Below are positions 1-10,238 of a stretch of 64,000 nucleotides of DNA, piece by piece. The stretch's first letter is position 1. Every line of letters starts with the position of its first letter. The stretch is taken from positions 1 through 64,000 of the IMG/VR virus record IMGVR_UViG_3300033146_001635, one strand, 5' to 3'. Source of the DNA: a virus. Below the pieces are notes generated by a model. That model did no database searches. It was not told where the DNA came from and saw only the letters and a program-made list of their open reading frames with translations. A program made the translations under genes and the position numbers.

Positions 1-1011
1 ATATATTATAAAGATAAACAAAAATATCTAGAAACAATTGTACCCATAGAAGAAATAGCTCAATTAAAATCAATTAAGAGTACAATTAAATGGAGATATC
101 CAAAAATTAATAAACATCAATTTTCATCAATATTAAAATTCTTTAGGGATGTAAATAATAAACATTCCGCAGAATGTATGGTATTTATTGGATTTGATAG
201 AAAAGCAAAAAAAATGACTATTTTTCCACCGCACAAACAAGTAGTAACAGGTGCATCAATTAAATATGAAAACGCCCCAACACCGGGTATTTCTATTATT
301 GGAACAATTCACTCACATAATACAATGTCTGCCTTTCATTCAGGTATTGATATTAGAGATGAAATGGATTTTGATGGGTTACATATTACCATAGGTAAAT
401 TAACAGAACATGATGAATCGTTTGAAATATCGTGTCAATTTGTTGCAAATGCACATAGACAAGATGTTTCTTATGTAGATGTTATTGATGGTATTATTCG
501 AAAAAATAACGTCAATGCATCACAATATCTTAATAACCCAAAAAATATTGTTCAACAATTATTGGGTAAAACTTTAGGAATTTTCTATAATAATAAAGTG
601 CAGGTAATTTCATCTACACCAAAATTATTTCCTGAAATTTCATGTGATTCATTATCAGATGGATATAATAAAATTATTGATAAATGGCATCAAACTATAA
701 AAGTAAATACACTTACACTTAATAAATCAAAATATGGAAAACATTCAAATCTTTTTGGATATGGTGGATATACAGAAGAATTCTACACTCAACATTTTAA
801 TAAACATAAACACCATCCTATTTTAAATAAAGAAGTTCCATTTGAAAAGAAAGTCAATTTTGATGATGACTTTTTTATTAATGAAAATGGTGAAATTGAA
901 AGATTGGAAATGTTTGATAATGATGAAGATGATTTTGATTTTCTTATTGTTGATGATCAAAATATAGTTGATGAAGATGATGAAATAAATGAGGGTGTAT
1001 TACCATTTTAA
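1..1011 (+). CDS. JAMM/MPN-family metallopeptidase, 5' end outside window
   Basis: The reading frame is open from base 1, so the gene starts before the window; 336 residues are visible. It carries a complete JAMM zinc motif: Glu58 (GAA at 172-174), then His104, His106, Ser114 and Asp117 in the exact HxHx7SxxD spacing (IHSHNTMSAFHSGID). The Glu lies before the first internal ATG (178), so a start at 178 would remove a catalytic residue. JAMM enzymes cleave isopeptide or C-terminal peptide bonds of ubiquitin-like proteins. The C-terminal 60 residues are very acidic. The gene heads a run of E1-like and ubiquitin-like genes, so its likely job is to mature or remove the Ubl encoded at 1787. The family is clear; the substrate is inferred. 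Confidence 0.88.
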   Translation: MYYKDKQKYLETIVPIEEIAQLKSIKSTIKWRYPKINKHQFSSILKFFRDVNNKHSAECMVFIGFDRKAKKMTIFPPHKQVVTGASIKYENAPTPGISIIGTIHSHNTMSAFHSGIDIRDEMDFDGLHITIGKLTEHDESFEISCQFVANAHRQDVSYVDVIDGIIRKNNVNASQYLNNPKNIVQQLLGKTLGIFYNNKVQVISSTPKLFPEISCDSLSDGYNKIIDKWHQTIKVNTLTLNKSKYGKHSNLFGYGGYTEEFYTQHFNKHKHHPILNKEVPFEKKVNFDDDFFINENGEIERLEMFDNDEDDFDFLIVDDQNIVDEDDEINEGVLPF

Positions 1012-1025
1012 AAGGGAGTTATAAT

Positions 1026-1736
1026 TTGAATAAAGTTAGTATTTATATTATTGGATTGGGGGGAATTGGTTCATGTTTGTGTGAACCAATTTGCCGTTAT
1101 ATTAATTATTTAGAAAATAGGAGAGATTATGACATAATATTAATTGATGGAGATTCCTATGATGATGGGAATCTTGCAAGACAATATTTTGAATGGGATG
1201 AAATAGGAGAAAATAAAGCTGAAGTCCAAGCTAAAAAAATGAAGAATAAATTTGAAGAATTAGATATAAAAACAGAAGCTATATATATCAATTCACAAAA
1301 TATTAAAAATACTATTGTTGATAATAGTATAATATTATCTGGGGTTGATAATCACAAAACCAGAAAAATTATTCAAGATCATTGTAATAAATTATCTAAT
1401 TGTTTATATATATCAGGTGGAAATTTTTACATTGATGGGGATGTAATTATTTTCGCTAAAAAGGATGGTGTACAGCTTTCACCAACTATTTATCAAGATC
1501 ATAAGGATATCGCCAATCCAACTGATCGAACACCTGATGAAATTGGGTGTGATGAATTAGTGGAATCTGTACCACAACTGTTGTTTACAAATGGAACAGT
1601 ATCTATTTGTATGCAATGGGCATTTTACAATTATTATAAATTATTTCAAGAAAATAATATAAGCATTTATAAAAATAAGATTAGTTTTGATATTTGTGAG
1701 ATGAGTGTTATATCTCGCAACAGACCTATTATTTAA
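1026..1736 (+). CDS. E1/ThiF-like Ubl-activating enzyme
   Basis: The 236-residue protein has a Rossmann nucleotide-binding loop GLGGIGS (residues 10-16), the ThiF/E1 signature DGDSYDDGNLARQ (41-53, with the adenylation Arg52), and SGVDNHKTR (105-113) matching the conserved Asp and Arg that bind ATP-Mg. E1/ThiF enzymes adenylate the C-terminal carboxylate of ubiquitin-like proteins. Cys175 (DEIGCDE) sits where a thioester Cys could lie, but this is a guess. No paired CxxC zinc motif is seen. The start is TTG at 1026, 5 bases after AAGGGAG; it lies 14 bases after the JAMM gene, so the two are probably one transcript. The family call is solid; the partner is inferred from context. Confidence 0.88.
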   Translation: MNKVSIYIIGLGGIGSCLCEPICRYINYLENRRDYDIILIDGDSYDDGNLARQYFEWDEIGENKAEVQAKKMKNKFEELDIKTEAIYINSQNIKNTIVDNSIILSGVDNHKTRKIIQDHCNKLSNCLYISGGNFYIDGDVIIFAKKDGVQLSPTIYQDHKDIANPTDRTPDEIGCDELVESVPQLLFTNGTVSICMQWAFYNYYKLFQENNISIYKNKISFDICEMSVISRNRPII

Positions 1737-1786
1737 ATTATTTAAAAAAGATAACTTTAACCACTTTTTTTCTTAGGAGAATTATT

Positions 1787-2371
1787 ATGAGTGTTATTGT
1801 CAATGGGCTCGAAGTTTTCACACTGGCTGAATTAAATGAAAAAACTGCTAAAGAGCTTCGGGCCCTTTGTGCGCAGTATAATCTTTCAAGATATTCAAAA
1901 GCCAATAAAACAACTCTTTTAGAAATGATTCGTAATTATTATGAAGAATTATTAAATAGTGAAACTGCATCTAATCTTAGAATAATTGCTGGAAATCTTG
2001 GTTATACTGGAATTTCTAAAACCACCAAAGCTAATTTAATTGATTTAATTCTTAATCATACTGATGCAGATAATGATGAAATTGATTTAAGTTCTGATGA
2101 AGAAGTTGACATTTCAGGTGGTGAGGAAATTGATATTTCCACACCTGATAAAAAAGATGATAAAATTACTGTAATTTATGGTGCAAAAAATCGTGAAGTT
2201 GACGATGAAGGCAAGAGTGTATGGGATATTCATGCCAATCTTGCTTCTGTTATGGGTCTTCCACAGAAGCCCGATTTTCGAGTCAATGACGCAGTTGTAA
2301 ATAATAACTATATTCCTACTGCGGGTGATTCGATTGAATTTTTCCGGACTGAGTCTGGGAATAAAGGTTAA
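1787..2371 (+). CDS. Two SAP-like domains plus C-terminal ubiquitin-like domain
   Basis: The 194-residue protein begins with two SAP/Rho-N-like helical units (about residues 12-50 and 56-92; both follow the pattern ELR..A...l..sk..K..LldlI), then an acidic linker (95-123). A beta-grasp-like domain follows (about 126-194) with the features of phage and bacterial Ubls: ITVIYG first strand, VNDAVVNNNYIP turn, AGDSIEFFR last strand, and an end in GNKG. SAP-like units often bind nucleic acid, so the protein could carry a Ubl tail to DNA or RNA. A strong ribosome site (CTTAGGAGAATTATT) precedes the ATG. It lies between two E1-like genes and after a JAMM gene, which supports the Ubl call. The C-terminus has one terminal Gly and not Gly-Gly. 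Confidence 0.72.
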   Translation: MSVIVNGLEVFTLAELNEKTAKELRALCAQYNLSRYSKANKTTLLEMIRNYYEELLNSETASNLRIIAGNLGYTGISKTTKANLIDLILNHTDADNDEIDLSSDEEVDISGGEEIDISTPDKKDDKITVIYGAKNREVDDEGKSVWDIHANLASVMGLPQKPDFRVNDAVVNNNYIPTAGDSIEFFRTESGNKG

Positions 2372-2380
2372 TATATAATA

Positions 2381-2432
2381 TGCCCCCACTATTATATATA
2401 CCTTGTGTGGTACACATATAGTAGTGGGGGCA
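2381..2432 (+). terminator. Long hairpin between genes
   Basis: A 17-base arm at 2381-2397 pairs with 2416-2432 with a single G-T wobble. The stem is GC-rich at its base (TGCCCCCACT) and is followed by TAATTGGTTT. It is probably a terminator or an RNA-processing hairpin. The next start codon comes only 16 bases after the stem. Confidence 0.6.
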
Positions 2433-2448
2433 TAATTGGTTTATAATT

Positions 2449-2814
2449 ATGATTATTGATGAACTTTTAAAAGAAATTAAAGCAGATGAAAATTTAGAAA
2501 AATTAAAAATCATCTGTGATAAAATGCAATCCGAAGAAGTATATACTGAAGATTTTTTTAATTTGTCTGAGATATTGTATTATCACAAATATGATGAAAA
2601 CACCTTTTTTGAAAAGGTTTTAACTTTGTCTTTTGATATGTTGGCTGAAAATATTTACCATATTGATGAATGGCAAATAAATAAAGCTTTAAAAGATGGC
2701 GATGAAAAAAAATTTAAAAAAATTCAAACATATAGTTTACATACAATATTTGCAAAAAATGTATTAATGAAATACGCACAAATTTTGAAAAAGGCTATTA
2801 ATAATGGGAAGTGA
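2449..2814 (+). CDS. Unknown acidic helical protein in the Ubl cassette
   Basis: The 121-residue protein is rich in Lys, Glu and Asp and looks mostly alpha-helical. I recognise no domain. No clear ribosome site precedes the ATG; the start lies 16 bases after a strong hairpin. The 3' end overlaps the next gene by 11 bases, so translation is probably coupled to the second E1-like gene. Its place between the Ubl and the second E1-like protein suggests an accessory role in the same pathway, but nothing in the sequence shows this. Confidence 0.6.
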   Translation: MIIDELLKEIKADENLEKLKIICDKMQSEEVYTEDFFNLSEILYYHKYDENTFFEKVLTLSFDMLAENIYHIDEWQINKALKDGDEKKFKKIQTYSLHTIFAKNVLMKYAQILKKAINNGK

Positions 2815-3643
2815 AATATCAATTATTGGTGTTGGTAGTATAGGCAAAACTTTATTGGATGCCTGTATAAAAACACAAATTTTTGATAAGATAAATATTA
2901 TTGATGGGGATAAAGTTAAAAAACATAACTATGTTTTTAATAATAAATTTTTAAATATACAAAAAGTTTATGCATGTAAGGAATTATATGGAAATAAAAT
3001 AAATCCTATTAATCAATATTTGTCATACGATAATCTAACAGATATAAAAAAATTAACTAATAAATCGCAGTTTATATTTGATTGTAGAGATGTTTTTGAT
3101 AATATAAATTTGCCAAAAACTATTAAATTGTATATAAACGATAGTAGATTGTTTATAAGTTCAATTAGTAAAGAATCTTTTAAATTTGAATTCAAAAGTG
3201 ATTATGTATCATTTACAGATTTAACTAAAATAGAAGATTTGATATTCAAATTTATCAAATATTTCACAAATAAAAATTTGTCAAATCACGATATTATTAT
3301 TAAAAATATATCAAATAAAAATAAAGCTGTTGTTATTAATACGTTAGGAAATATTGATATATTAGATTCTACAAAATATATTTTTTCAAAACAAATTAAA
3401 TCAAAATTAAATAAAATTGTTGAAACACAAAAAATAACTGATTTGAATATAATTGTTGAAGATGGTATTTATATTTTGTGTAATGAAAAATATAATTTGA
3501 ATTTACATCCAATTCATGATATTTTATATAATATTGAAAAAGAGTGTTCCCATTTTCCAGCTGCATTTGTATCCTATAGAATGTCATCTCGACATTCAAA
3601 TGAATTAATTATGACAATTCATAATCAAATAGGAGGCGCATAA
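2804..3643 (+). CDS. Degenerate E1/ThiF-like protein
   Basis: The 279-residue protein opens like an E1/ThiF Rossmann domain: ISIIGVGSIGK (residues 5-15), then INIIDGDKVKKHNY, matching the family's D.D.V..xN stretch. The Arg and Gln of the usual NLxRQ motif are missing (HNYVFNNKF in their place), and no clear thioester Cys is evident. It may be an inactive partner of the E1 at 1026, or a highly divergent active enzyme. The start codon lies inside the 3' end of the preceding gene. The stop overlaps the next start as TAATG, preceded by AGGAGG inside this gene. The fold call is fairly sure; activity is open. Confidence 0.66.
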   Translation: MGSEISIIGVGSIGKTLLDACIKTQIFDKINIIDGDKVKKHNYVFNNKFLNIQKVYACKELYGNKINPINQYLSYDNLTDIKKLTNKSQFIFDCRDVFDNINLPKTIKLYINDSRLFISSISKESFKFEFKSDYVSFTDLTKIEDLIFKFIKYFTNKNLSNHDIIIKNISNKNKAVVINTLGNIDILDSTKYIFSKQIKSKLNKIVETQKITDLNIIVEDGIYILCNEKYNLNLHPIHDILYNIEKECSHFPAAFVSYRMSSRHSNELIMTIHNQIGGA

Positions 3644-4281
3644 TGTTAAATTGGGAAATGGATCTTGAAAAATTGAATATTAAAATTGTTCCAGTAGATA
3701 ATCCCAATTTAATTCAATTAACAACAGATATTAAACCACGATTTTTACAATACCAAGGTCTTTTAATTCCAATTAATATCAAACAAGAATATGTGTTAAA
3801 AACTAGTATTAATAATGTAGTGTTAGAAATAAAACGATTAAACCAACGATCAATTTTAGTTGATAAAATTTATATTTTAAATAGTATACACCCAAATGCT
3901 ATGACACTACCTTCAAATCCAATATTAGATTTGAATTTTGTTAATAATATTGTTTATCAATATTGTTTCAATAAATTTGTATTTGATGATGAAAATCCTA
4001 TTTCGTTTGTTAATCAAGTTGGGTATTTAATAAAATTTTTAGAAAAATGGAATTATGATGAAGCTTATTGGAGAGATTTTAAAATTATTGAAATTAATAT
4101 TGATGACCATGAAGTATGTATAGATCCAAATAATAACAATAAAATGTATAATAAAAAACAATTAAAGAAAAAATTATCACGCCATTCGAAAATCATTCAC
4201 ACTTCTATTATTTTAAATAAACTTTTAGGTATTCCTAGATTAGATATTGAAGATACCTTAAAAAAAATTTTCTTGGTTTAA
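3643..4281 (+). CDS. Unknown protein, possible E2-like fold
   Basis: The 212-residue protein has no motif I recognise with certainty. Residues around 60-100 run as strand-rich sequence followed by IHPNAMTLPSNPILDL, which recalls the E2 stretch HPNxxxxGxxCLDL, but the catalytic Cys position holds an Ile. A helical region (YLIKFLEKWNYDEAYW) follows, as in E2 proteins. Context (JAMM, E1, Ubl) makes an E2-like or E2-decoy role plausible. Translation is probably coupled to the E1-like gene upstream through the TAATG overlap. A strong terminator follows. Treat the function as unknown until a structure comparison is done. Confidence 0.55.
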   Translation: MLNWEMDLEKLNIKIVPVDNPNLIQLTTDIKPRFLQYQGLLIPINIKQEYVLKTSINNVVLEIKRLNQRSILVDKIYILNSIHPNAMTLPSNPILDLNFVNNIVYQYCFNKFVFDDENPISFVNQVGYLIKFLEKWNYDEAYWRDFKIIEINIDDHEVCIDPNNNNKMYNKKQLKKKLSRHSKIIHTSIILNKLLGIPRLDIEDTLKKIFLV

Positions 4282-4287
4282 AAATAA

Positions 4288-4337
4288 AATTACCACCTTT
4301 TGAGATCTTAATAGTGAGATTTCAAAAGGTGGTAATT
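4288..4337 (+). terminator. Terminator closing the Ubl cassette
   Basis: A perfect 16-base stem pairs AATTACCACCTTTTGA (4288-4303) with 4322-4337 around an 18-base loop. It lies 6 bases after the stop of the last cassette gene and separates that unit from the RNA polymerase genes. The trailing T-run is weak. Confidence 0.7.
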
Positions 4338-4401: not shown

Positions 4402-7170
4402 ATGCCCCAATTATTATCAAACGATTTTATGAAAGATTTACCAGAGATAACAACCTCAAAATATTTTGAAAAGAAAAAAAGATACCATAAAGATGGGTTA
4501 TTTTCTGAATATATTTTTGGTTTGGAAAATAATTATACATGTCATTGTGGTATTTATCACGGTAAAAGTGCTGAGGGCACAGTATGTAATGAAAAATGTT
4601 GCAATGGATTGCCTATTACACATTCTATTAAAAGACGCAGACAATATGCAAAAATAATATTACCAATTCCTGTTTTAAATAAAACTTTTTTATTACTATT
4701 AAAAAAAGTATTTCCAAACGAGAAAATTGTTGAAGCTATCACAAAAATAATGAAATCTTATAAAAATATTATTTATAAAAAAGATGGCGAATATTTTTTA
4801 AGAGAGCTTGGTGAAAACGAAGATTTAGATAAATTTGAATTGGAATACTATTCATTACATGAAGCTGCTGAAATATATTTAAAAGAAACAATTGAAAAAT
4901 ATAGATTGATAGATCCTGAAAATAAACAATTTAAAATGATTGATGATAATAAGGATAAATTGTTTATTAATGAAATTTTGGTTATACCACCTGATTTCAG
5001 ACCAATATCTCAAATAAATGCTAATACAAAATCTGTTGACCAAATTAATCAATATTATAATCAATTGTTAGTCAGAAAAGAAATTATGGCTAAAATTGAT
5101 ATGGACATTACACAACATATTAAAATTTATCATAATTATTATATACAATTTCAATATATTTATAATGAATTATATGAATATATCATTCAAAAAATTTCTA
5201 AAAAAGAGGGTTTAATCAGAGGGAATATTCTTGGAAAACGAATAGATTTTTCTGGTAGAGCTGTTATTGCACCATCCCCCAATATTAATTTGGATGAATG
5301 TATTCTTCCATATAAAATGGTTTTAGAATTATATAAGATTAAAATCGCAAAATATTTATATAATTCGGGAAAATTTAAATTTTTAAATCAGGCATTGTTA
5401 TGTGTTGAGGAATGTCAATTTTATAATGATCCAAGATTATTAGATATTTGTAAAAAAATAATAGGAGATGATGTTTGTATTTTAAATAGACAACCTAGTT
5501 TACACAAATTAAGTTTTATGGCATTTAAAATAAAAGTTGATATTGTTGATGTTATTTATATTCACCCAATGGTATGTCATGGATTTAATGCTGATTTTGA
5601 TGGGGACGCAATGGCAGTATATTTACCAATCACCCCTGAATCTCAAGAAGAAGCAAAACGACAAGCATTATCTACTAAAATGTTAATCAACCCAACTAAT
5701 ATGCAAATTATTACTTTACCAAGTCAAGAAATGATTTTGGGTTTGTATTTACTGAGTGTTGCAAAAGATGGTAAATATGGACAAAAATGTGAATTTAAAA
5801 ATGTTGAAATGACTTATGGTATGGCATTGATTAATAAATGTTTTCCAAAAGATTATAAAGTAATTACTGAAAAAATAACAACTAAATCTATATCTTCAAT
5901 AATATATGAAATTTTTAATAAACACCCTGATGAAATTGTTGAAGTTTTAGATAAAATTAAAACAACTGGTTTTAAATATGCAACTTTAATTGGGCATACC
6001 ATATCATTAAAAGGTATGACTTCAAATGAAAAATTAAAAAATGAAATTTATTCTAAGAAAACATCACAACAACAATTAAAAGCAATAACAAGTAACAAGG
6101 TTAAAAAATATTTACAAGAAAATTTTATATATACTGATATGATTGAATCTGGTGCAAGAGGGAGTTGGGACCAAGCTAGACAATTAATATTAACAAGAGG
6201 ATTTGTATCTAATTTCAAAGGTACTATTTTACCAATTCCTGTTAAAAATTGTTTAGTTGATGGATTGACACCAACTGAATTTTTCTTATCTTCATATGGA
6301 TGTCGCAAGGGATTGCTAGATATTGCAATCAAAACAGCATCATCAGGTTATTTATTTAGAAAATTTCTTTTCGCTTGTTCTAATTTAATGATTGATTATG
6401 AAAATGAAGATTGTGGTACAACTGATTTATTAGGGGTGTATATAAATGATTTGAAAAAAGCATATTCAGTCAAAGGTCGTTGGTATGCGCCAGATCCTGA
6501 AAAACCAACAGAATTAGAATTAATTACAGATGCAAATTTAAATAACATAATTAATAAACGAATATTTATACGTAGTCCCATTTTCTGCAAAACAAAAAAA
6601 TTGTGTAAAACATGTTATGGTAAATTATATGAATATTTAAATAATAGCCGTTTTGTTGGATCTATTGCTGCTCAATCACTTGGAGAATCAAATACTCAAA
6701 TGGTATTAAGAACTTTCCATACATCTGGTGTTGCTATAACAAAAAATAAAGATGTTACTGAAAATGAAACAGAAAATAAAAAAATGAAACAAGATGATAT
6801 TGTCGGTGCATTAACATTAATATCACAACTTGTTCATAAATTTGATTCATCTGTTACATGCGATATATTGGTTGAACAATTACATCATATTTATTCAGAT
6901 GGAAGATTTTTCATGTTAATACATTTTGAATGTTTAGTTGCACAATTGATGTGGAGTGCTAGAAAAAAATGGAGATTATTGCCAAACCGTGACAAAGTAT
7001 CATACGAATTAAATTCGATAGTTGCGGTTCCATCATTAGAAAGTTGGTTAATGGGATTAGCATTTTCAAATACAAAAAGAGAATTAATCAATGGATTATT
7101 AGAACCTGGATTGTATTCTGGAGGTGTTATTGATAAAATATTATGTGGTGTATCATATAAAGATATTTAA
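4402..7170 (+). CDS. Phage RNA polymerase beta-prime-like subunit, one chain
   Basis: The 922-residue protein holds the full order of beta-prime landmarks: an N-terminal Cys cluster (C47, C49, C62, C66, C67); GKRIDFSGRAVI; RQPSLHKLSFMAFK; the catalytic NADFDGD at 396-402 (Mg-binding D398, D400, D402); bridge-helix-like SGARGSWDQARQL; a trigger-loop region GLTPTEFFLSSYGCRKGL (about 621-638); a second Cys cluster (about 729-739); GESNTQMVLRTFHTSGV (about 761-777); and a C-terminal clamp-like tail. It is shorter than bacterial beta-prime (about 1200-1400 residues) but not split into two genes as in phiKZ-like phages. The ribosome site is TAGGAGAAAAG. It forms the active centre with the beta gene that follows. 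Confidence 0.95.
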   Translation: MPQLLSNDFMKDLPEITTSKYFEKKKRYHKDGLFSEYIFGLENNYTCHCGIYHGKSAEGTVCNEKCCNGLPITHSIKRRRQYAKIILPIPVLNKTFLLLLKKVFPNEKIVEAITKIMKSYKNIIYKKDGEYFLRELGENEDLDKFELEYYSLHEAAEIYLKETIEKYRLIDPENKQFKMIDDNKDKLFINEILVIPPDFRPISQINANTKSVDQINQYYNQLLVRKEIMAKIDMDITQHIKIYHNYYIQFQYIYNELYEYIIQKISKKEGLIRGNILGKRIDFSGRAVIAPSPNINLDECILPYKMVLELYKIKIAKYLYNSGKFKFLNQALLCVEECQFYNDPRLLDICKKIIGDDVCILNRQPSLHKLSFMAFKIKVDIVDVIYIHPMVCHGFNADFDGDAMAVYLPITPESQEEAKRQALSTKMLINPTNMQIITLPSQEMILGLYLLSVAKDGKYGQKCEFKNVEMTYGMALINKCFPKDYKVITEKITTKSISSIIYEIFNKHPDEIVEVLDKIKTTGFKYATLIGHTISLKGMTSNEKLKNEIYSKKTSQQQLKAITSNKVKKYLQENFIYTDMIESGARGSWDQARQLILTRGFVSNFKGTILPIPVKNCLVDGLTPTEFFLSSYGCRKGLLDIAIKTASSGYLFRKFLFACSNLMIDYENEDCGTTDLLGVYINDLKKAYSVKGRWYAPDPEKPTELELITDANLNNIINKRIFIRSPIFCKTKKLCKTCYGKLYEYLNNSRFVGSIAAQSLGESNTQMVLRTFHTSGVAITKNKDVTENETENKKMKQDDIVGALTLISQLVHKFDSSVTCDILVEQLHHIYSDGRFFMLIHFECLVAQLMWSARKKWRLLPNRDKVSYELNSIVAVPSLESWLMGLAFSNTKRELINGLLEPGLYSGGVIDKILCGVSYKDI

Positions 7171-7187
7171 AAATATAAGGGGTGAAA

Positions 7188-10100
7188 ATGTATCAAAACA
7201 ATCCTGATTTAAAATTACCAGAAATAAATATTTTTAATCTACGAAAATTAGATGATTTAAAATTAATGGACACTATTGAAGAAATTTTAAAAGTGCCTAT
7301 TAAATATGGATTTAAACTAGAAGAATTTTCTAAATCAGATATTAGATATACTGGACATAATCTAGTTAATACAATTAAAGAAAATATTAATGTAAAATTA
7401 TCTAAAAATAATAATATTGTTGATTTATCAATGCAGATTCCAAAACTTGTTGATAATCAATGGTTTGTAATTAACGGTAGAAGAAAAATACCAAGGTTCC
7501 AATTATATGATATTCCGTTGTTGACATTATATTTTAAAAATGAAATTCGTTTTCATAGTAATGTAGGAAGAATTGGTATCTATTGGACGGATAATAAAAA
7601 GAAAGCTCCTTCATTTGTATCAATAGCTAGTTTATCCAAAAAAATTCCTCTATCTATTGTTTTATATGCCTTTTATGGTATAGAAAAAGTAGAAGAACTA
7701 TTTTTAAAAGATGTGGATGAAGATGAATTAAATAAAATTCCTAATGACAAAAAATCAATTCTTCAATTATTACAATTGGATTTAATAGATGCTTATTCAG
7801 AAGTTACACAAGAAATGTATATTGAAGCAATTGGAGATTATTTTTCAAGAAAAAATCCAAAAGAAAAAGGTGAAGATTATATTTTCACTTTAGAAAATAT
7901 TTTGGATATTGATGTAATAGCAAAAAAATTTATTCCACATGATAATATTTTGGATTGTTTATGTGATATTCTTATTAATGAAATACAACTTGATGATACA
8001 GATTATTTAAATAAAAGATTGAGATGTTATGAATATGCTATTATTCAATATTTTATGGAAAATATTTATAAATTATGTTTGACATGTAGAAATTCAAATA
8101 AACCTAAATATAATATTAATAAAACAAAAATTTTAGCAAGTTGCAATGTTTCAGAAATTATTCAATATGATTTTTGTATTAACCCAGTTGAACAATTAAC
8201 TAAATTAACACAGTGTACGTTATCTGGGCCGGGTGGATTTAAAAAGGAATCAATACCTATAAAATTAAGGGATTTAAATCAATCAATGATAGGTAAAATA
8301 TGCCCCGTTGATACACCAGATAGAGAAAACTGTGGTGTTGTACAAAATGTAACACCAGTTGTCAAATTTGATAATAATTTTAAATTTTTAGAAGATAATA
8401 CGAAAGTAATTCCATCATTAGCTGTTTCAATGGTTCCATTTTTAGAACATGATGATACTACTAGATTACAAATGGCAGCTTCTCAAATGAGACAAGCTAT
8501 ATTACTTGATAATTTTCAAGTGCCATTGGTTTGTTCTGGTGTGGAAAAACAATTTACTGAATTTACTAGTTTTATAGAATATGCAAAAGATGATGGTGAA
8601 GTTATATACAAAGATACTAAAAAACTTATTATTGGATATAAAAATGGTGAAATAAAAATAATTGATATAGGTATTAAAAAAATTCTATCTGATAATATGA
8701 GTCATATGACTACCGTATTAAATATCGGTGATAAATTTAATAAAGGTGATATAATTGCATCAAGTTCATTTTGTAATGATGGTCTTATTAAAATAGGTAG
8801 AAATTTTAAAGTTGCATTTATGTCATACTATGGATATAACAACGAAGATGGAATTGTTATTTCTGATAAACTTGTTAAAGATAATTCATTGACATCTGTT
8901 CATTATCTTGATTTATCATTTAATATATCTCCTAATAAAGTATTAGAAAGATTAATTGATTCAGAAGTATATACACCTTTATTTCCAGTTGGAACTAGAT
9001 TAAAAAAGGGTGATGTGTATGCTAGATTAAAAGATATGTACTTATTTGGCTCAATCAAAGATCAAGTTTATGATATTTTTAAAGATAGTCAAGAAAAAAT
9101 AACACCAAAAGATATTTTAATTACAGATATAAAAATATATGCAAATGAATGGCATACAGAATTAAAAGAATATGATGCATGGATTAAATATAATATTCAA
9201 AAACAAATTGATTATGGTAATAAAATTATTAATATTATTAAAGATAATTCAGATGAAGCTACGGCTAAAAAATTAATTACAGAACACCGACTTGATGAAT
9301 TAATGTATCCAAAACAATATAAAAGAAAAGATGAGAAATTAAAAGGTGTTCACATTGAAATGACTGCTGTATATGAAAGACCAATTCAAGTGGGTGATAA
9401 ATTAGCTAATAGACATGGTAATAAGGGTGTTATTACATCTATTATGAGCCATGAAACAATGCCACAGCTACCCAATGGTGAACATGTTGAAATCTGTTTA
9501 AACCCAATGGGCGTGTTATCAAGAATGAATTTGGGGCAATTATTTGAATTTCATTTAAGTGAAGCTTTAATGAAATTCAAAAATATTCTTAAACAAATGT
9601 TAAAAGATAATTGCAAACAAGATGATATTAAAAAATTAATAATGTCATTTATAAAAATGACAGATAAAACTGATACACAATGGATTTCACATAGTTTCAA
9701 AGAATATTTGCCAGAAATTATAGATGAAAAATTTATCGATGATTTGTATTTAATTCAACCACAATTTAACTCTATATCAAAAGATGATATGGATAAAATT
9801 ATGGATTTTGTTGAATGTGAATACGAAATAGAATTATATGATCCTGTATCAAAGGAAAAAATTGAATCTAAAATTGCTGTCGGATATATGTATCTTATGA
9901 AACTGATTCATATTGCAGAAAATAAATTAGCATATAGAAGCATATCTACACTATCTAGAAAAACCATGCAACCCACTGCTGGTAAAAAATTAAATGGTGG
10001 GCAAAGATGTGGTGAAATGGAAAGTGGCTGTGCTGTATCAAATGATATGCCAATAAATCAGACAGAATTTTATACAATTAAATCCGATTGTATAGATGCA

Positions 10101-10238
10101 AAAAATAATTATTTAAAACAAGAATTAAACACAGAATTTACAATGATTAAAGAAAATCCAGATATGGAACCTGAAACAATTAAATTGCTTAGATCTAATT
10201 TAAGAGTTTTGGGTATTGATTTTGATGGAGAATTATAA
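7188..10238 (+). CDS. Phage RNA polymerase beta-like subunit, one chain
   Basis: The 1016-residue protein shows beta-subunit landmarks in order: LSGPGGFKKESIPIKLRDL followed by GKICPVDTPDRENCGVV (fork and rifampicin-region equivalents), YGYNNEDGIVISD (E553-D554), ERPIQVGDKLANRHGNKGV (Lys738 and Lys746 near the active centre), and GGQRCGEMESG close to the C-terminus, which grips beta-prime. It is shorter than bacterial beta (about 1180-1340 residues). I chose ATG 7188 because AAGGGGTG lies just upstream; a GTG at 7182 is inside that ribosome site. The gene follows beta-prime by 17 bases. No alpha subunit or sigma factor is recognisable in the window. Confidence 0.95.
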   Translation: MYQNNPDLKLPEINIFNLRKLDDLKLMDTIEEILKVPIKYGFKLEEFSKSDIRYTGHNLVNTIKENINVKLSKNNNIVDLSMQIPKLVDNQWFVINGRRKIPRFQLYDIPLLTLYFKNEIRFHSNVGRIGIYWTDNKKKAPSFVSIASLSKKIPLSIVLYAFYGIEKVEELFLKDVDEDELNKIPNDKKSILQLLQLDLIDAYSEVTQEMYIEAIGDYFSRKNPKEKGEDYIFTLENILDIDVIAKKFIPHDNILDCLCDILINEIQLDDTDYLNKRLRCYEYAIIQYFMENIYKLCLTCRNSNKPKYNINKTKILASCNVSEIIQYDFCINPVEQLTKLTQCTLSGPGGFKKESIPIKLRDLNQSMIGKICPVDTPDRENCGVVQNVTPVVKFDNNFKFLEDNTKVIPSLAVSMVPFLEHDDTTRLQMAASQMRQAILLDNFQVPLVCSGVEKQFTEFTSFIEYAKDDGEVIYKDTKKLIIGYKNGEIKIIDIGIKKILSDNMSHMTTVLNIGDKFNKGDIIASSSFCNDGLIKIGRNFKVAFMSYYGYNNEDGIVISDKLVKDNSLTSVHYLDLSFNISPNKVLERLIDSEVYTPLFPVGTRLKKGDVYARLKDMYLFGSIKDQVYDIFKDSQEKITPKDILITDIKIYANEWHTELKEYDAWIKYNIQKQIDYGNKIINIIKDNSDEATAKKLITEHRLDELMYPKQYKRKDEKLKGVHIEMTAVYERPIQVGDKLANRHGNKGVITSIMSHETMPQLPNGEHVEICLNPMGVLSRMNLGQLFEFHLSEALMKFKNILKQMLKDNCKQDDIKKLIMSFIKMTDKTDTQWISHSFKEYLPEIIDEKFIDDLYLIQPQFNSISKDDMDKIMDFVECEYEIELYDPVSKEKIESKIAVGYMYLMKLIHIAENKLAYRSISTLSRKTMQPTAGKKLNGGQRCGEMESGCAVSNDMPINQTEFYTIKSDCIDAKNNYLKQELNTEFTMIKENPDMEPETIKLLRSNLRVLGIDFDGEL

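Follow-up and report, generated by a model that had tools for sequence, protein, structure and literature searches.

A predicted ubiquitin-like conjugation cassette with a Rho_N/SAP-fused modifier next to the RNA polymerase genes of a phage

Discussion of ubiquitin-like systems in bacteria has mostly centred on host defence against phages. The closest known to the locus described here are the PRTRC operons, which we take to be operon type 6d of Iyer et al.; they share with it a separate JAMM protease, an E1, a ubiquitin-like protein (Ubl) with a conserved C-terminal glycine and an E2-like protein, all in one operon. Type 6d was described as consisting of a JAB protein, an E1, a small Ubl with a C-terminal Gly and an E2-like protein in which the Cys is kept and the His lies elsewhere (Iyer et al. 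2006, PMC1779556). The present locus occupies bases 1–4281 of the IMG/VR viral record IMGVR_UViG_3300033146_001635, of whose 94,583 bases the stretch 1–64,000 was analysed (the window). Six consecutive open reading frames on one strand encode JAMM, E1, a Ubl fused to Rho_N/SAP-like units, a protein of 121 residues (p4), a second E1-like protein (E1b) and an E2-like protein (p6), and are followed by the genes for the RNA polymerase (RNAP) subunits beta' and beta (Table 1). Judged from these sequences, the phage probably encodes here its own reversible system of Ubl conjugation, in which a nucleic-acid-binding tag would be attached to proteins, most likely those of the phage. A first-pass annotation of the same DNA had proposed a phage conjugation cassette of six same-strand genes with a nucleic-acid-type domain on the Ubl; all six reading frames are present, and the proposal came through the sequence and fold tests described below.

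The fold of the Ubl was examined in an AlphaFold2 model made on an alignment of 57 relatives. The predicted local distance difference test (pLDDT) value of the C-terminal domain was about 95 at residues 131–180, and the model has strands at residues 127–131 and 134–138, a helix at 145–156 and further strands at 163–166 and 182–186. The 50 best Foldseek matches in the PDB were all of the ubiquitin fold (beta-grasp), with probabilities of 0.99–1.00, and include MoaD, Caldiarchaeum ubiquitin, NEDD8, SUMO, SAMP1 and ubiquitin itself. Template modelling (TM) scores normalised to the target reached about 0.69, and the E-values were modest (0.003–0.02) because the domain is small. The predicted structure confirms the ubiquitin fold of the C-terminal domain. 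The beta-grasp domain ending in GNKG had been placed behind two SAP-like units; the fold held, and the two N-terminal stretches match Rho_N at 2.7e-8 (Pfam), which fits them better than SAP. Among the 57 family members, 28 match ThiS and 42 match Rho_N. The C-terminal GxKG, with its conserved terminal Gly, is found in 63 of 65 distinct RNAP-linked relatives: 39 end exactly in GxKG, 14 in GxKGC and 10 in other or longer extensions, such as GTKGIIGTLLKKC in L114, with 2 lacking the motif as scanned. A conserved GxKG followed by an optional extension is the pattern that would be expected of a protease-matured Ubl. The identification of the Ubl gene is strong.

The two genes upstream of the Ubl gene supply the predicted protease and activating enzyme. 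JAMM matches Prok-JAB at 9.7e-5, just under the Pfam cut-off, and PRTRC_A at 7.6e-6 (NCBIfam), and the complete JAMM of relative L114 (L114:5499-6551) matches PRTRC_A at 4.9e-12. The exact JAMM motif already noticed in the first pass is there, as the MPN+ metalloprotease site HSH-x7-S-x2-D at residues 104–117 together with Glu58; Glu58, His104, His106, Ser114 and Asp117 are kept in 67–68 of 69 relatives. The E1 matches ThiF at 1.3e-18 (Pfam) and PRTRC_ThiF at 1.6e-17 (NCBIfam), and its E1/ThiF signature is intact, as had been claimed: GxGGxG, DxD, N-x-x-R-Q, Lys, D-N-x-x-x-R and the crossover Cys are all found, and GxGGxG, Asp41, Arg52, Gln53, Lys64, Asp108 and Cys175 are invariant in 66 of 66 RNAP-linked relatives. 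By these sequence matches the identities of the JAMM and E1 genes are strong. Given that the catalytic residues are invariant or nearly so, the predicted cassette is presumably under selection for activity. The JAMM proteins of many relatives also carry long C-terminal extensions with CxxC zinc ribbons, which are absent from the window copy; the extension in L015:8363-9994 gave a TFS-like match at 1.7e-4.

E1b, earlier noted as a second Rossmann E1-like protein, proved to be one: it matches ThiF itself at 4.5e-5 (Pfam), and its family profile matches MoeB (1e-14), MccB, ThiF, Cap2, UBA5 and UBA3. On sequence its identity as an E1-like gene is strong. The glycine motif, Asp34, Lys54 and Asp93/Asp96 are kept. 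The Arg of NLxRQ is missing from the family and no conserved crossover Cys was seen in the family alignment and residue counts. The C-terminal tail is conserved, reading IGGA in the window, ETGAA in most relatives and GGA or GSA elsewhere in the family. The C-terminal domain with its GGA/TGAA tail was considered as a second Ubl and dropped when profile comparison gave P < 1%.

Most relatives of p6 are short (107–170 residues) and read HPNxDPxTxEFCLP. Pro32, His, Asn and Cys are invariant in an alignment of 44 members; in one of 51 members His and Cys are invariant and Pro and Asn nearly so. HPN...Cys is conserved in more than 40 relatives, HPN and Cys being the most conserved residues of the family. 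Searching PDB sequences with either family profile returned only E2 enzymes, namely Pex4 of two species, to which the second profile added 1yrv. The alignments fall precisely on HPN..C, and none has an E-value under 0.13; these matches are suggestive by their exclusivity rather than their size. Pfam UQ_con was matched by 1 of 44 family members (E 0.006), and hhalign of the family against four known human E2s gave E 0.0012 at HPN..C and 0.42 for a control family. The window p6 itself gave no direct family match in Pfam or NCBIfam, PHROGs and PADLOC gave no informative model for it, and neither p6 nor E1b had a tblastn match in phage records. The p6 of the nearest relative, L114, also has an insertion between HPN and Cys. 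Loss of the Cys from the window p6 was considered and rejected, since with the insertion aligned the Cys falls at the family position. By motif and synteny p6 may be called E2-like with moderate confidence, its fold being unconfirmed. In L188:4016-9987, a diverged locus linked to RNAP, an E2-like protein with HPNCDKNGYYCLG is encoded along with a JAMM, two E1-like proteins and, by eye, a glutamine-amidotransferase/QueC-like protein; a Ubl was not detected in it.

Relatives were gathered by an E1-family profile scan of IMG/VR and a scan of GTDB genomes; alignment-based scans were required, single-sequence scans for close relatives with E1 and RNAP beta' having found nothing. The order JAMM-E1-Ubl-E1b-E2-RNAP beta' on one strand was found in 56 loci including the window, several of these contigs being near-duplicates. 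An order repeated identically 56 times lies far outside what chance would give, and all of these loci share the position just upstream of the phage RNA polymerase that the first-pass annotation had remarked on. As a control for the bias of E1-based retrieval, relatives were re-sampled by RNAP beta' alone, using the 80 best matches only. Of these loci, 62 had 7 kb or more of upstream sequence; 58 of them contained JAMM, 57 E1, 57 Ubl, 59 E1b and 58 E2, the counts coming from fragmentary contigs of uneven redundancy. Two putative phage RNAP matches that proved to adjoin cellular ribosomal-protein genes were disregarded. Mean identities over 65 non-redundant loci were 54% for E1 and 60% for RNAP beta', and the pairwise distances of the two proteins were correlated with r = 0.85 against a permutation maximum of 0.37. 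This correlated divergence argues that the module was inherited with the polymerase, and the module is probably a vertically inherited core function of an RNAP-encoding myovirus lineage. Inheritance with the polymerase is more in keeping with a core role than with one in defence or anti-defence, which would be patchy. Three-gene JAMM-E1-Ubl loci without E1b and E2 also exist (L022, L081, L089, L092, L094 and contigs of NC10). The E1-Ubl loci without E1b and E2 on metagenome-assembled genome contigs of Methylomirabilota (NC10) are L101, L102, L104, L106, L108, L109 and L110, with JAMM where the contig reaches. The one at L110:7094-10971 is apparently chromosomal, because genes for an AAA ATPase, a thiolase and HSP70 adjoin it.

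The window starts at the end of the contig, inside the JAMM gene, and the first 25–30 residues of JAMM and everything upstream are cut off; the upstream genes were sought elsewhere on the same contig, in case of circularity, and were not found. In complete relatives a protein of about 850 residues is encoded directly upstream of JAMM. By hhalign this protein matches, over its N-terminal part, the PRTRC-B (Prok-E2_D) family of phages (probability 99.1, E 8.5e-18), and its sole Pfam match is a weak one to Prok-E2_D (E 0.002; 0.007 in L114, two genes upstream). With this Prok-E2_D-like protein upstream, the lineage may have two E2-like proteins. Farther upstream, genes encoding WYL_2 and SbcC/SbcD-like proteins accompany one for a radical SAM enzyme. 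This radical SAM/SPASM-like gene (e.g. L012:3838-4860) is kept in 47 loci, at a few kb upstream from the cassette.

In the conjugation system proposed, JAMM would trim the Ubl precursor, where extended, to its ...GxKG end. E1 would adenylate the terminal Gly of the Ubl and then hold it as a thioester on Cys175, with E1b probably acting as a non-catalytic partner. The Ubl would pass to the HPN-Cys E2, the upstream Prok-E2_D-like protein or both, to be transferred on to lysines of the targets. The N-terminal Rho_N/SAP units would remain on the tag, so that a conjugated protein would gain a nucleic-acid-binding arm, and JAMM would take the tag off again. The best guess for the targets is phage transcription, recombination or virion proteins encoded nearby. 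We infer every biochemical step, the E1–E1b partnership and the substrates from the sequences. Several points weigh against this scheme. The Ubl ends in GxKG instead of the usual diglycine, and the target proteins are guesses from the gene neighbourhood. The window p6 has an insertion between HPN and Cys108, and its AlphaFold2 model (pLDDT 80) found no significant Foldseek match in the PDB or in BFVD/viral models; the top TM-score among the matches listed, that of the E2 1yf9, was just 0.36 with a probability of 0.11. The possible E2 of the first-pass annotation is supported by the HPN..Cys motif, synteny and exclusively E2 sequence matches in the PDB, but not by its predicted fold.

The doubt over p6 leads to a narrower version of the same scheme, in which tagging by JAMM, E1 and Ubl would work while neither p6 nor E1b would be a conjugation enzyme, transfer being carried out by E1 or the upstream Prok-E2_D-like protein alone. 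It differs just in the transferring protein, and the likelihoods given here for the alternatives are not mutually exclusive. The unconfirmed E2 fold and the existence of JAMM-E1-Ubl loci without E1b and E2 speak for it; given that HPN and Cys are the top-conserved residues of p6, that the PDB sequence matches are E2s only and that E1b and p6 are retained in 59 and 58 of the 62 loci, it seems rather unlikely. An E1 of the ThiF/MoeB type and a Ubl matching ThiS and, by fold, MoaD might also belong to a sulfur-carrier pathway, where the E1 would adenylate a ThiS/MoaD-like protein whose thiocarboxylate would serve as the sulfur source for, say, a modified nucleotide or peptide, and the conserved radical SAM enzyme encoded upstream would be a partner. 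The HPN-Cys E2-like gene and the Prok-E2_D-like protein conserved in the gene cluster are at odds with such a pathway, as are the fusion of the Ubl to nucleic-acid-type domains, its GxKG rather than GG end and the failure of family searches of the cassette to find a rhodanese domain, and sulfur transfer is accordingly quite unlikely.

Counter-defence against host Ubl immunity (Bil, or the type II cyclic oligonucleotide-based antiphage signalling system, CBASS) would have JAMM strip host conjugates, with E1, E2 and Ubl as decoys. In its favour, bacteria are known to use E1/E2/JAMM systems against phages, the window E1 has weak PADLOC E1-E2 matches, and the E1, JAMM and Prok-E2_D-like proteins found in virions of phage Arash (PMC10585845) could be injected. 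Nevertheless, a module that is nearly universal, fixed in gene order and vertically co-inherited with RNAP has the look of a core function, unlike anti-defence genes with their patchy pattern, and the stripping of conjugates needs no complete conjugation cascade, making this a very unlikely role.

Returning to conjugation of phage proteins, a more far-reaching proposal can be put forward only tentatively, as a possibility on the doubtful side: that the RNAP-encoding phage lineage depends on its own ubiquitin-type cascade (E1 with a pseudo-E1, two kinds of E2 and JAMM), with a nucleic-acid-binding modifier that would tether or regulate the phage transcription and recombination machinery. If this were true, a viral ubiquitin system would be core replication biology, neither defence nor accessory. 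The near-universal, vertically inherited presence of such a cassette next to the RNA polymerase genes of a phage lineage would in itself make ubiquitin-style modification an ordinary part of the life cycle of some bacterial or archaeal viruses. Among the systems compared, none has a counterpart to a modifier with its own nucleic-acid-binding domain. The cassette would also be a natural test bed for the assembly of E1 pairs, HPN-type E2s and JAMM proteases outside eukaryotes. A literature search, its scope excluding subscription journals and preprints, found no description of the cassette, and a prior description is possible.

The neighbouring genes include a T4-type terminase, a tail sheath and a baseplate wedge, and the phage is therefore a myovirus. 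RNAP beta' is about 45–62% identical in relatives. The two RNAP genes appear to put the phage near the RNAP-encoding Caudovirales (mReC) of Weinheimer and Aylward; RNAP beta and beta', a PF03237-family terminase (TerL) and a tail sheath are all present. The mReC terminases are likewise in Pfam PF03237, and ubiquitin goes unmentioned in the mReC paper (Weinheimer and Aylward, PMC7481178). The terminator that the first-pass annotation had placed at the close of the cassette turned out to be a strong hairpin that lacks a U-tract and does not qualify as a canonical intrinsic terminator; another hairpin of this kind follows the Ubl gene. Both lie at gene ends and are perhaps processing or non-canonical termination signals. 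Relatives of p4 sit upstream of JAMM in many other loci.

Table 1. Features of the cassette and the adjoining RNAP genes, in window coordinates.
Feature	Position	Strand	Remarks
JAMM/JAB metalloprotease, PRTRC_A-like	1..1011	+	5' end cut by contig end; predicted Ubl maturase and deconjugase
E1-like adenylyltransferase, ThiF/MoeB fold, PRTRC_ThiF-like	1026..1736	+	TTG start; candidate catalytic Cys175
Ubl precursor	1787..2371	+	two Rho_N/SAP-like helical units, linker, C-terminal ubiquitin-fold domain (~residues 125–194), end SGNKG
Strong hairpin between Ubl and p4 genes	2379..2434	+	19-nt arms, -35.7 kcal/mol, z -5.1, no U-tract
p4, 121-residue protein	2449..2814	+	orthologue at equivalent position in L114, 38% identity
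E1b, second E1-like protein	2804..3643	+	Rossmann/ATP-site residues largely kept; no NLxRQ Arg, no CxEx Cys
p6, E2-like	3643..4281	+	HPN motif 83–85, candidate catalytic Cys108, insertion between them in window copy
Strong hairpin between E2 and RNAP beta' genes	4288..4337	+	21-nt arms, -31.3 kcal/mol, z -8.9, no U-tract
RNA polymerase beta'	4402..7170	+	tblastn to RNAP beta'; anchor of synteny
RNA polymerase beta	7182..10238	+	

The first-pass annotation had cited Bil as an example of the known bacterial operons. The logic of E1, E2, JAMM and Ubl is common to the cassette, Bil/Bub and E1-E2 CBASS, and the window E1 is weakly similar to PADLOC E1-E2 models and to BilD (1e-4). Apart from this match of E1 to BilD, no match to BilA, BilB or BilC was found among the window proteins with PADLOC, and with respect to type II CBASS, E1 and E2 are unfused and there is no CD-NTase among the six proteins. 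The cassette is a phage core locus, whereas those systems are defence operons, and its nearest relative is the PRTRC operon family (type 6d) rather than Bil. The eukaryotic SUMO and NEDD8 E1s resemble it in pairing a catalytic E1-like protein with a partly degenerate one and in working with an HPN-Cys E2. By analogy with them, E1 and E1b may be a catalytic E1 with a degenerate, non-catalytic partner; they differ in that the phage E1–E1b heterodimer is a prediction and the C-terminal region of E1b has no similarity to the Ubls tested.

PRTRC-like cassettes are also carried by the isolated phages Bacillus KLEB27-3, Vibrio D69 and Salmonella Arash, with genes for a Prok-E2_D-like protein and JAMM in the same order, followed in KLEB27-3 and Arash by an intact E1. 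The Ubl genes of KLEB27-3 and D69 lie upstream and are unfused and tandem-repeated, unlike the fused Ubl of the window. Profiles found no pair of E1b and HPN-type E2 in the isolated-phage cassettes, and they have no RNAP neighbour. The gp199 protein of KLEB27-3 (vB_BauM_KLEB27-3; L002:6742-7449) is polyubiquitin-like, with four near-identical Prok_Ub units of 57 residues (Pfam 5e-27, 4 stretches). Each unit ends in AGVKG followed by Met, the last with the tail MPRIVVK, and the whole resembles eukaryotic polyubiquitin precursors. Two to three tandem Ubl-like units ending in TGTKG were likewise seen upstream of Prok-E2_D-like and JAMM genes in D69 (L006:5310-6101) and in the viral contigs L046:6254-6643 and L047:6176-6616. 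In Arash, gp248–gp246 (L007:1519-4539), the Prok-E2_D-like, JAMM and ThiF/E1 proteins, were detected in virions by mass spectrometry (PMC10585845). This detection, made in a distant relative, hints that the proteins act when particles assemble or later.

The likeness to PRTRC operons extends to the families matched, in that the window JAMM matches only PRTRC_A and the window E1 best matches PRTRC_ThiF (NCBIfam), and perhaps to the Prok-E2_D-like protein just upstream of JAMM in relatives. The scores lie far below the curated cut-offs, at 25.6 against 101.8 bits for PRTRC_A and 63.7 against 144.75 bits for PRTRC_ThiF. The window Ubl has no PRTRC_C or Prok_Ub match in Pfam or NCBIfam, and its profile comparison with the phage Prok_Ub-type Ubls is weak (P 11, E 0.003). 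The phage cassette thus differs from PRTRC in a Ubl that is not Prok_Ub and is fused to Rho_N/SAP-like units, in an extra E1-like protein, in a second, HPN-type E2, p6 having the classical HPN where type 6d has its His elsewhere, and in a locus that is fixed beside the phage RNAP.

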